From Rhodobacterales bacterium (GTDB taxonomy: Bacteria > Pseudomonadota > Alphaproteobacteria > Caulobacterales > Hyphomonadaceae): a DNA stretch of 64,000 bases. A program made the translations under genes and the position numbers. Within the stretch, counting starts at the first letter, position 1. Each line of letters starts with the position of its first letter. The stretch lies in contig JACXUV010000002.1 in the NCBI GenBank assembly GCA_014763715.1, positions 124,001 through 188,000 of the forward strand, written 5' to 3'. Shown one piece after another: positions 1,725 through 4,262 of the stretch. Under the pieces are notes generated by a model. The model searched no databases. It had not been told where the DNA came from and was given only the letters and a program-made list of their open reading frames with translations.

Positions 1725-3197
1725 ATGGTCGCTGCGCTTGCGGTTTATATCGTGCTGCAATTTGCCATCGCAATCTGGGCCAGCCGGTTTGTCAATTCCG
1801 AAGCCGATTACTTTGTCGCCGGGCGCCGGTTCGGTGTACTGATGGTCGGCGTCTCGGTCTTCGCCACCTGGTTCGGGGCGGAGACGGTTATGGGCGCCTC
1901 GGGCGCCATTGCCGAGGAAGGCCTGGCCGGCGGGCGCGCAGACCCGTTCGGCTACACGCTCTGCCTGATCGGCATGGCGCTGTTCCTCGCCTACAAGCTG
2001 CGCGCGTCCGGCGTGATGACCTTCCCGGACTATATGCAGCTGCGCTTCGGGCAGCGGGCGGAGGTTACCGCCGCCGTGCTCACCATTCCCACCTCGATCA
2101 TCTGGGCCTCCGCCCAGCTGCTCGCCATGGGCCAGATCCTGTCCGAAACAGCGGGCATAGACCTTGGTTTCGCCCTCTTCGCCGGGGCCGTGATCATCAT
2201 CGCCTACACGACCATTGGCGGTCTTCTGGGCGACGCAATGACCGACATGGTACAGGGCGCCGTGATGATGACCGGTCTCGTCATCCTGCTGGTCACCGTG
2301 CTCGCGACCGGCGACTTCTCCTTCTCCCATATCGGGCCGGAACAGCTGCAATGGCGCCTCACGGAGGAGGACGGCACGAAGGAAAGCTGGCTCTCGACGA
2401 TTGATGCCTGGATGATCCCCATTGTCGGCTCACTTGTGGCGCAGGAGGCGATCTCCCGCTTCCTCGGCGCGAAGTCCGCCAGCGTTGCCCGCATGGGCTG
2501 TTACCTCGCCTCCGGGCTTTACCTGGTGCTGGGCGCAATCCCGCTCATCATCGGCCTGCTCGGCCATGCGGCGGGATTCGAAGCGGAAAGCACCGACAGC
2601 TACCTGCCGGAACTCGCGCGGCAATACCTCTCCCCGCTCATGTACACCGTGCTGATGGGGGCGCTGATCTCGGCCATCCTGTCGACGGTGGACACGACGC
2701 TCCTCGCCGTCTCCGCCATTGCCAGCCGGAACCTGATCGAGCGGGTGGCGCGCAACCTGCCGGAACCTCGCAAACTGCTCTTCGGCCGCTCGCTCACCCT
2801 GCTCGCCGGTCTCCTTGCCTATGCGATTGCGGCCTCGGGCGAGACCATCAAGGGGCTTGTCGAAATCGCCTCCGCCTTCGGGTCAGCCGGCATCGCGGTG
2901 GCGTTGCTGATCGGACTGCATTCCAAATTTGGACGCGAGATGGCGGCCCTCGGCGCCATGGTGGCCGGTGCTCTGGCCAGTTTCTTCGGTGAGGGCATGC
3001 CGGCCTGGTTCATCAGCCTGTTCGATGAGGCTGCGGCGGACTCCATGCCCGGTTGGACGCAAGGGTATGAGGGGTCATACCTGTTCGCCGTACTCGCCGC
3101 ATTGGCGGTCTATATCGTGATTGGCGGACTGGAATCCCGCGGCCTGATTGAGGATCGAAAAAAAAGCCCGGCTGCGATTGACGCGCCGGGCTTGTGA
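1725..3197 (+). CDS. Sodium:solute symporter (SSS family)
   Basis: Inner-membrane transporter of the SSS/LeuT-fold family, importing a solute with Na+. The 490 residues form about 13 hydrophobic segments. Family features include the early GRRFGVLMVG...WFGAETVMGASG region (around residues 31-60) and the helix 8 segment with ISAILSTVDTTLLAVSA, where Ser/Thr residues of the second sodium site normally sit. The start at 1725 follows a weak GGAGATCTGGCGG. Substrate is unknown; relatives carry proline, pantothenate, acetate or sugars. The last codons overlap a terminator-like hairpin that reads on the opposite strand. Confidence 0.85.
   Translation: MVAALAVYIVLQFAIAIWASRFVNSEADYFVAGRRFGVLMVGVSVFATWFGAETVMGASGAIAEEGLAGGRADPFGYTLCLIGMALFLAYKLRASGVMTFPDYMQLRFGQRAEVTAAVLTIPTSIIWASAQLLAMGQILSETAGIDLGFALFAGAVIIIAYTTIGGLLGDAMTDMVQGAVMMTGLVILLVTVLATGDFSFSHIGPEQLQWRLTEEDGTKESWLSTIDAWMIPIVGSLVAQEAISRFLGAKSASVARMGCYLASGLYLVLGAIPLIIGLLGHAAGFEAESTDSYLPELARQYLSPLMYTVLMGALISAILSTVDTTLLAVSAIASRNLIERVARNLPEPRKLLFGRSLTLLAGLLAYAIAASGETIKGLVEIASAFGSAGIAVALLIGLHSKFGREMAALGAMVAGALASFFGEGMPAWFISLFDEAAADSMPGWTQGYEGSYLFAVLAALAVYIVIGGLESRGLIEDRKKSPAAIDAPGL
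3157..3193 (-). terminator. Rho-independent terminator, minus strand, inside symporter 3' end
   Basis: On the minus strand AAGCCCGGC and GCCGGGCTT form a stem followed by an uninterrupted T run (A run at about 3158-3165 on the plus strand). It would end the candidate sRNA and any read-through from lysR. It overlaps the last codons of the symporter gene. Confidence 0.7.
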
Positions 3198-3269
3198 GTA
3201 TCGGGTCCCGAAGGGGGAGGAAACGCCCAATCGGAGGAAGGATTGGGTAATGCCCGGGACCCTTGGCAT
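3157..3269 (-). ncRNA. Candidate small RNA with anti-Shine-Dalgarno loops
   Basis: Read on the minus strand, this segment has the parts of a free-standing sRNA gene. A promoter-like pair (TTGTGC at 3303-3298, TATCTA at 3281-3276, 16 bases apart) would start a transcript near 3269. An outer 8-bp stem pairs 3255-3262 with 3203-3210, and a nested perfect 7-bp stem pairs 3241-3247 with 3226-3232. The nested loop reads CTTCCTCC and the 3' internal strand reads TTTCCTCCCCC, both complementary to ribosome-binding sites. It ends in a G+C-rich hairpin and a run of U. C-rich loops of this kind are known in alphaproteobacterial sRNAs (CuckooRNA/GsrN-like). It could instead be processed from the lysR 3' end. 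No homologue search was possible. Confidence 0.5.
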
Positions 3270-3321
3270 AACGCCTAGATAGGCCCTTTTCGCAGGCGCA
3301 CAACCACCACCCCGTCAGATC

Positions 3322-3343
3322 AATCATGCAAAAATGCATGATT
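3322..3343. repeat. Perfect inverted repeat after lysR
   Basis: AATCATGCA and TGCATGATT, 9-bp perfect arms around AAAA, 14 bases past the lysR stop. There is no clear U tract on the lysR strand. It may be a 3'-end stabilising hairpin or a protein-binding palindrome. Confidence 0.5.
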
Positions 3344-3356
3344 AACGCACGTTCAT

Positions 3357-4262
3357 CTAGACCGGTCGCATGGCTACCCGTCGTAGCTGTTCTGTCTCAG
3401 CTGTTACGAAATCCCGGAACGCGGCAACCCGCTTGGACCGGCGCAGATCGCTCGGGTAGATGAAATAGAGGTCGAAGATCGGGCCGACATTCTCCGGCAA
3501 AACCTTCACCAGCCGCGGCATGGTGGAGGCCATATAGTCCGGCACGTCGGCGATGCCGAGGCCGGCATCGACGGCGCGGAGCATGGCGAAGACATTGTTC
3601 ACCTTCAGCGTCGCCGGGCGCGGCGGGGCGTCGTCGCGGCCCACGCGGCAGGCAAAGCTCATCTCCTGCAGCGGCGAGGTCTCATCGCCATAGGCAATGA
3701 TGCGGTGATTATCGAGGTCCTGCGGCGTGCGCGGCATGCCGTTCGCCTTCAGGTATTCCGGCGAAGCGTAAAGGTTCGTCGCCACGGTGCCGAGCTTGCG
3801 CTGGATCAGGTCTGCCTTGTCGGCGGCCCACAGGCGGATGGCGCACTCGGCCTCCAGCTTCAGCAGGTCATATTCCCGGTCTTCGAGACGCAGGTCCAGG
3901 TGCAGGTCCGGGTGCTTTTTCACAAAGCCGCCCAGGCGCGGCACCAGCCAGGTGGAGCCGAAGGCCACCGGGGCCGACACGATCAGCTCCCCTTGCGGCG
4001 TTTCCTGCTGGTCGCGCAGGGCCGTATTCGCCGAAGCGGCGGCCTGCGCCATCTCCATCGTGGACCGGAACAGCGTGTGCCCGGCATCGGTCAGCACCAG
4101 GCCGCGCGCATGACGCTGGAACAGCGAGACGCCCAGCGTCTCCTCCAGCGCCGCGATCTGGCGCGAAACGGCCGATTGCGAGATGCCCAGCCGGTCGCCG
4201 GCGGAGGTCAGGCTGCCCGCTTCCGCGGCAGCGTGGAAAGATCTTAGCTTACCCCAGTCCAT
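3357..4262 (-). CDS. LysR-family transcriptional regulator
   Basis: 301-residue DNA-binding regulator. The winged helix-turn-helix is at residues 1-62 (SLTSAGDRLGISQSAVSRQIAALE), followed by the linker helix and a substrate-binding domain typical of LysR proteins. The opening MDWGKLRSFHAAAEAGS resembles the subgroup often annotated near GcvA/PecT-like regulators. It lies 39 bases downstream of the PLP decarboxylase on the same strand and may share its transcript, so that gene is a possible target. This differs from the usual divergent LysR arrangement. The effector is unknown. Confidence 0.88.
   Translation of the reverse strand: MDWGKLRSFHAAAEAGSLTSAGDRLGISQSAVSRQIAALEETLGVSLFQRHARGLVLTDAGHTLFRSTMEMAQAAASANTALRDQQETPQGELIVSAPVAFGSTWLVPRLGGFVKKHPDLHLDLRLEDREYDLLKLEAECAIRLWAADKADLIQRKLGTVATNLYASPEYLKANGMPRTPQDLDNHRIIAYGDETSPLQEMSFACRVGRDDAPPRPATLKVNNVFAMLRAVDAGLGIADVPDYMASTMPRLVKVLPENVGPIFDLYFIYPSDLRRSKRVAAFRDFVTAETEQLRRVAMRPV

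Follow-up and report, generated by a model that had tools for sequence, protein, structure and literature searches.

In Rhizobiales, each of the small RNAs (sRNAs) AbcR1 and AbcR2 (alpha-r15) has two anti-Shine-Dalgarno (anti-SD) segments, the first in the loop of a 5′ hairpin and the other between stem-loops; activation of AbcR1 proceeds by way of the regulator LsrB (PMC8844928). In S. meliloti, LsrB is reported to have no effect under the conditions used in PMC7486931, a paper which also gives the gene order trxB-vtlR-abcR and describes VtlR and the trxB-vtlR arrangement as conserved in the class. Caulobacter SisA represents another design, in which UUUCCUCCCU, single-stranded after a hairpin, acts on mRNAs together with Hfq (PMC12559287). 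Here we analyse a stretch of 64,000 nucleotides (the window) from a Hyphomonadaceae bacterium (contig JACXUV010000002.1, positions 124,001 to 188,000). It contains a conserved structured RNA with conserved anti-SD strands, linked to a LysR-type regulator gene and preceded by a conserved palindrome. To judge from sequence comparison, a small RNA that acts by blocking the ribosome-binding sites of other genes is very probably encoded beside this LysR gene.

Conservation and structure of the RNA

The initial annotation of the window had placed on its minus strand a promoter-like pair, an 8-bp and a nested 7-bp stem and a terminator with a U run, about 113 bases in all, and every one of these elements is found there (Table 1). 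By blastn, the RNA gene was recovered in 41 of the 42 genomes of the genus, the single genome without a match being 74% complete, and in 72 of the 105 genomes of the family. An exact pattern of the RNA core retrieved 55 stretches among named genome contigs, with titles reading Hyphomonas, Henriciella, Hyphomonadaceae or Alphaproteobacteria, two odd titles of metagenome-assembled genomes (MAGs) excepted. Many of these relatives belong to one genus with the genome of the window, which is thus most likely a Hyphomonas.

The structure was tested on 70 loci reduced to 40 representatives at 97% identity, 39 of which (without L065) form alignment A2; it comprises 31 pairs in 4 helices, or 1190 cells. 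Standard pairing is present in 92.0% of these cells, compared to 24.9-48.4% when the partner is slid by 1-3 columns, a comparison that somewhat favours the structure since it was derived from the window sequence. Changes on both sides were observed in 16 of the 31 pairs versus 9.1 in shuffles, and none of 500 shuffles reached this number. RNAalifold, run unaided on alignment A1, returned 23 pairs, 12 of them with both-side changes; the 5′ helix described below was not among them. Fold z-scores are -4.73 (3150-3275) and -4.88 (3158-3271), and no shuffle of 200 was equally stable. Read as minus-strand RNA, 1095 of the 1190 cells pair; a plus-strand structure, with 1039, was rejected. G-U cells outnumber A-C cells by 76 to 20, for which reason the RNA was assigned to the minus strand.

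The conserved stems and C-rich segments agree with what had first been proposed, a conserved sRNA that probably acts in trans and exposes two anti-SD segments: the stems covary, the loop bases UCCUCC are each conserved in 37-40 of the 40 representatives, and stems and segments are kept also in relatives without the symporter gene that converges on the RNA. A region serving only to terminate lysR transcription, or an RNA binding a protein or metabolite without any target in trans, might be invoked instead, the terminator being the best-paired helix and no targets being in hand. However, the most constant bases are unpaired ones, GUUUCCUCCC above all, and a terminator needs none of that; we consider this explanation very improbable. 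Coding was also envisaged as a cause of the conservation, since an ATG-started open reading frame (ORF; 3339-3013, minus strand) spans the RNA. It was rejected, with a probability next to nil, because relatives have GTG, TAG or GAG in place of the ATG at the RNA start, indels do not come in threes and the stems covary. As to the partial antisense relation to the symporter noted in the initial annotation, the terminator region does overlap the final ~40 nucleotides (nt) of that gene, but a symporter homologue lies downstream in only 8 of 69 family loci (loci ending early could hide some); the relation is incidental, and antisense control of the symporter was discarded.

The 5′ helix (AUGCC/GGCAU) has 87.7% of its cells paired in A2. 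Both-side changes occur in four of its five pairs, a number also attained by 50 of 500 shuffles; 24 cells are changed on both sides, compared to 8.0 when shuffled, and its covariation is 0.451, compared to 0.240, neither value being reached in 500 shuffles. This helix cannot nest with the outer stem. Its arms are separated by 2-3 nt plus the 7-8-nt strand of the outer stem, a spacing that suits the geometry of an H-type pseudoknot. Together the two helices likely form such a pseudoknot, although they may instead represent two alternating folds. Two of the five pairs are broken in 9 of the 39 sequences, which by eye are of the Henriciella type. The covarying, interlocked helix is directly testable.

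Table 1. Features of the sRNA locus in window coordinates. Helix and conservation values refer to alignment A2 and to the 40 representatives, respectively; the window sequence is itself part of covariance model R1
Feature	Position	Strand	Details
Sodium:solute symporter gene, convergent	1725..3197	plus	ORF; NCBIfam sss 154.7 bits, below cut-off 184
sRNA gene, ~113 nt	3158..3270	minus	start predicted, +/- 2; R1 match 3158-3271, 118.1 bits; alignment A2
Intrinsic terminator with U run	3158..3193	minus	hairpin, then 8-U run reaching 3158; 98.3% of cells paired; double change in 5/11 pairs; simple scan negative
Outer stem GGGUCCCG/CGGGACCC	3203..3262	minus	8 bp, 3262-3255 with 3210-3203 (read from sequence); 86.5% of cells paired; both-side changes in 6/8 pairs; outermost pair broken in 20/39
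Anti-SD segment 2, GCGUUUCCUCCCCC region	3213..3225	minus	C-rich strand UUUCCUCCCCC at 3223-3213; GUUUCCUCCC invariant, 40/40
Inner hairpin, loop CUUCCUCC = anti-SD segment 1	3226..3247	minus	7 bp, CCCAAUC/GAUUGGG, 3247-3241 with 3232-3226; loop 3240-3233; 91.8% of cells paired; double change in 1/7 pairs; 3 pairs invariable
5′ helix AUGCC/GGCAU	3250..3269	minus	3269-3265 with 3254-3250; interlocks with outer stem; pseudoknot or alternative fold; covariation
-10-like TATCTA	3276..3281	minus	A2 and T5 each in 39/40
-35-like TTGTGC	3298..3303	minus	T, T, G in 40, 39, 34 of 40
Palindrome CATGCATTTTTGCATG	3325..3340	minus	centred near -63 of predicted start; proposed VtlR/LsrB box
LysR-type regulator gene, 301 amino acids	3357..4262	minus	ORF; proposed VtlR/LsrB orthologue and sRNA activator

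Two contigs titled Sulfopaludibacter and Acidobacteria (L096, L100) bear a Hyphomonas-type locus and are probably misnamed MAGs. Several MAG contigs begin or end in or near the RNA gene (L007, L103, L116; G020:C17, C54; G034:C45, C150), where hairpins perhaps break assembly.

The LysR gene and the promoter-like region

Absent from the initial annotation were the constant link to LysR, the 5′ helix described above, the palindrome centred near -63 and the likeness to the VtlR/LsrB-AbcR system. The window's LysR gene is directly upstream of the RNA, on the same strand, in all 69 family loci scanned. A sample of the order gave LysR (E ≤ 1e-80) in 167 of 299 genomes and R1 matches in 104 of 298. 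For the 56 LysR-bearing family genomes in this sample, the R1 match was without exception found at a distance of 89-200 nt (median 96.5) beyond the LysR match. Five family genomes were listed without LysR: in G094 the R1 match is weak (34.1 bits), and the other four have none. At least five genomes of one other family (G217, G261, G134, G273, G213) have R1 matches 91-416 nt downstream of LysR; among the other LysR-bearing genomes of the order, the R1 distance was checked in 12 of 111, several of them chosen for a visible match.

Loci outside the R1 model (L175-L214) were taken around LysR orthologues from Hyphomonadaceae (7), two other families of the order (13) and the class (20). They contain 29 R1 matches at E ≤ 5, 25 of them no more than 1 kb downstream of LysR and on its strand; for the matches below 25 bits the proportion is 17 of 20. 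The Hyphomonadaceae loci L175 and L176 have two R1 matches each, those of L175 both lying downstream of LysR, in tandem, at 215 and 478 nt. By eye, no obvious RNA was seen downstream of LysR in the order loci L182, L183, L186, L187 and L194.

The tandem RNAs of L175 (343-455 and 607-718, minus strand), which are R1/RF00519-like, stand behind trxB-LysR in another Hyphomonadaceae genus. In close relatives of the window genome, weaker second R1 matches (36-43 bits) are located 68-75 kb off the main locus (G040:C1:770523-770612, G005:C4:62523-62607, G020:C17:74502-74586). R1 matches of ~30 bits scattered in the order may be alpha-r8 RNAs.

We regard the LysR protein as most probably the VtlR/LsrB orthologue of Hyphomonadaceae. 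Its best PDB chain is 9hh1 (E 5.3e-71, 41.6% identity over 291 amino acids), the runner-up (1.1e-30) following at a gap of 40 orders of magnitude. The cysteines of 9hh1 are at 144, 236, 244 and 273, precisely where A. tumefaciens LsrB is reported to have its four (PMC11975290), from which match we infer that 9hh1 is LsrB. Furthermore, trxB was found upstream of LysR, on the same strand, in 17 of the 20 class loci (the TrxB query came from L203, and the match in L195 is partial and at a distance of 1.1 kb) and in 6 of the 20 order loci, including L175 and L176 with their R1 matches downstream. The first 127 residues of the TrxB query match thioredoxin reductase best.

The -35- and -10-like elements are separated by a spacer of 16 nt, and their conserved bases (TTG, A2, T5) favour an independent gene. 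This bears on an alternative that had been left open from the start, that of an RNA processed from the 3′ untranslated region of the lysR mRNA. Such an origin would fit the common strand and the short, nearly constant distance to lysR, but the bases of the -35 and -10 elements and those of the palindrome have been retained amid variable ones, and we regard it as unlikely.

The palindrome was counted within 300 nt past the LysR stop codon, with the mean of 20 shuffles as control. Among L001-L070, 47 of the 69 loci have an exact TGCA-N4-TGCA (shuffled 0.4) and 66 have it with at least 7 of 8 bases (10.9). For the 20 loci L175-L194 the numbers are 6 exact (0.2) and 12 with at least 7 of 8 bases (3.15), 4 and 6 of which, respectively, come from the 13 loci of other families. 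Genome-wide, ATGCA-N4-TGCAT has 7 exact sites, including the palindrome, compared to 1 for the reversed control. In S. meliloti the LsrB box of PabcR1 is GCAT-N3-TG-N3-T, at -61 to -49 (PMC8844928). The window has GCAT-TTT-TG-CAT-G in the corresponding place, about -68 to -56 relative to the predicted start, which agrees with this consensus at 6 of its 7 fixed bases.

Proposed action of the sRNA

We propose that the RNA probably has a gene of its own, activated by the upstream LysR as a VtlR/LsrB orthologue, and is an anti-SD sRNA working like AbcR. The regulator, in its active form, would bind the palindrome near -63 and activate the housekeeping-type promoter, as position and conservation suggest. 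The predicted RNA of ~113 nt, with a structure supported by covariation, would end at its own terminator. In its 5′ half, the interlocked 5′ helix and outer stem, each indicated by covariation and presumably coexisting, would present the loop CUUCCUCC and the single strand GUUUCCUCCC. These C-rich segments would then pair with the Shine-Dalgarno regions of several mRNAs and block their translation, probably with the participation of Hfq, as AbcR1/2 and the alpha-r8 sRNAs do. Transcription, activation, mRNA pairing and a role of Hfq are what we infer for the candidate. In the genome, GGAGGAAACG occurs 18 times versus 7 for its reversed control, two of these sites being the antisense of the window RNA and of an alpha-r8 RNA.

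A number of observations weigh against the elements of the locus as read here or against this proposal. A simple consensus scan of 3100-3400 gave no sigma-70-like promoter and no terminator; it demands a T at position 6 of the -10, which is missing here, and the terminator stem is bulged. The final fixed T of the LsrB consensus is a G here, as in 36 of the 40 representatives, and the palindrome is unenriched in the 20 class loci (exact 0, shuffled 0.15; at least 7 of 8 bases 4, shuffled 2.45). TrxB gave no match in the window or in any of the 40 family loci L031-L070. In LysR, Cys140 is the equivalent of C144 while that of C273 is Ile; among 62 family proteins parsed from the 70 loci, 61 have the former cysteine and none the latter. 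C273 is reported as required in LsrB, and because its equivalent is Ile an LsrB-like redox signal is not to be assumed for this protein. The second C-rich strand, initially described as unpaired, is present with its invariant core, but 2 nt of the segment are also paired in the minimum-energy fold. Finally, 6 of the other 16 GGAGGAAACG sites have a start codon 7-10 nt further on, the placement expected of any good Shine-Dalgarno, and a seed-based list of targets was abandoned, its signal being too weak for use.

The RNA could also be a diverged alpha-r8 (MmgR/SisA) copy behind LysR, acting via a single UUUCCUCCCU-like strand, with the LysR link functionally minor. In favour of this, UUGGGCGUUUCCUCCC can be aligned to the RF00519 consensus, this model gives 31-36 bits to the RNAs next to LysR in two other Hyphomonadaceae genera, and RF00519 matches are present in 103 of the 105 family genomes, many of which have 2-4. 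Yet the window RNA itself reaches 19.5 bits (cut-off 41), a full alpha-r8 RNA (54.6 bits) is encoded elsewhere in the genome, the 5′ helix, the outer stem and a second anti-SD loop come in addition, and the LysR link holds in 56 of 56 genomes. We consider this origin possible but doubtful.

The full alpha-r8 RNA of MmgR/SisA type lies at G000:C56:18332-18405. Its antisense contains GGGAGGAAACGCC, so that it has the GGCGUUUCCUCCC seed in common with the window RNA.

LysR-linked RNAs in the class and comparison with known sRNAs

In 12 of the 20 class loci a second RNA type, ACGUCUCCCAGACGUGAAGCCUCCCUGUU followed by a terminator, was found downstream of LysR (L196, L199-L205, L207, L208, L211, L214; e.g. 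L203:2687-2756). A model of this type, R2, with an automatic structure that lacks the terminator, has matches in 83 of the 190 genomes from the class; both genomes of the Hyphomonas genus are without one. R2 and LysR (E ≤ 1e-50) occur together in 74 genomes, in 58 of which (12 training genomes and 46 others) R2 follows LysR on its strand within 1 kb, at 128-523 nt (median 215); in 25 of the 83 genomes the R2 match is not so placed. Ten LysR loci, including five with the second RNA type, were without any Rfam match at gathering score; the SorX score of this type is 25.9 bits. BjrC1505 (RF02356) was tried as an identity and rejected: the score is 24.0 bits, and RF02356 matches lie elsewhere (of 16 in LysR-bearing genomes, 13 are on another contig and 3 at least 7.3 kb away). 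By eye, four RF02356 matches coincide with weak R2 matches.

On balance, we favour the view that VtlR/LsrB-AbcR is the local form of an ancient alphaproteobacterial regulator-sRNA pair rather than a rhizobial invention. Most orthologues would have a downstream anti-SD sRNA, of at least two types outside Rfam (the Hyphomonadaceae type with its interlocked 5′ domain and the widespread ACGUCUCCCAGACGUGAAGCCUCCCUGUU-plus-terminator type), and the RNA sequence would have turned over while the address and the design with two C-rich segments stayed. Similar pairs of a regulator and a small RNA are indeed widespread in alphaproteobacteria, also outside the rhizobia, where the circuit was first established. 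A passage of PMC11975290 describes LsrB as found solely in Rhizobiales, and alpha-r15 sRNAs are presented as a family of Rhizobiaceae and Brucellaceae (PMC3712013). The novelty is reduced because PMC7486931, with its class-wide VtlR and trxB-vtlR, and PMC8844928, which describes the AbcR1 region as highly syntenic across alphaproteobacteria and presents an alignment of predicted homologues, point the other way. What is new relative to these papers is the RNA of Hyphomonadaceae and the class-wide survey, both absent from the examined passages of the open literature. If the pair is kept across the class, including marine bacteria without known hosts, the question would shift from host-microbe interaction to a general role, perhaps the tuning of nutrient uptake, and the pair would offer a system for studying sRNA turnover behind a fixed regulator.

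At Rfam gathering score the window RNA has no match, its best sub-threshold matches being ar14 (22.1 bits), RF02278 (20.4) and suhB/MmgR (19.5). With the ar15 model (RF02345), none of the 105 family genomes and none of the 190 class genomes gave a match, and it was not among the matches up to E 10 for window positions 3130-3360; the same model matched no control genome either.

GsrN of Caulobacter, from the same order, is another sRNA with a C-rich loop, which differs by its stress-sigma control and its own set of targets. We take the sRNAs described with CCUCCUCCC loops to be those named CuckooRNAs or ar14 (RF02344). They resemble the window RNA in their C-rich anti-SD loops, carried on several hairpins, but the latter has one such hairpin (CUUCCUCC), lacks CCUCCUCCC and scores 22.1 bits with ar14, whose cut-off is 58.8, so that the CuckooRNA likeness proposed by the initial annotation is poor. 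The CCUCCUCCC loops were reported in C-rich-loop sRNAs (PMC3927594). With alpha-r8 (MmgR/SisA-D, RF00519) the window RNA has in common the core GGGCGUUUCCUCCC(U) after a hairpin, followed by a terminator. At the place of the 10-mer UUUCCUCCCU the window has UUUCCUCCCC, UUUCCUCCCU itself being found in 10 of the 40 representatives; the score is below the family cut-off, and the second anti-SD loop and interlocked outer stem are extra.

AbcR1/AbcR2 are alike in size (~115-120 nt), in their place just downstream of a VtlR/LsrB-type LysR gene, in a Rho-independent terminator and in pairing an anti-SD hairpin loop with a second, single-stranded anti-SD segment (as defined in PMC8844928). A GCAT-N3-TG site at about -60 may be a further point of likeness, the start of the window RNA being predicted and one fixed base of the LsrB box differing. 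AbcR sRNAs repress mRNAs of ABC transporters and depend on Hfq for their stability. The tandem R1 RNAs of L175 recall abcR1/abcR2, LysR-linked RNAs otherwise being mostly present in one copy. In contrast, the interlocked 5′ domain is particular to the window RNA, its LysR has no C273 equivalent, and trxB is not adjacent in the window or in L031-L070. The window RNA combines the AbcR and SisA designs. Below the cut-offs of both RF00519 and ar14, it is best read, by analogy, as an RNA that works like AbcR from the same address.

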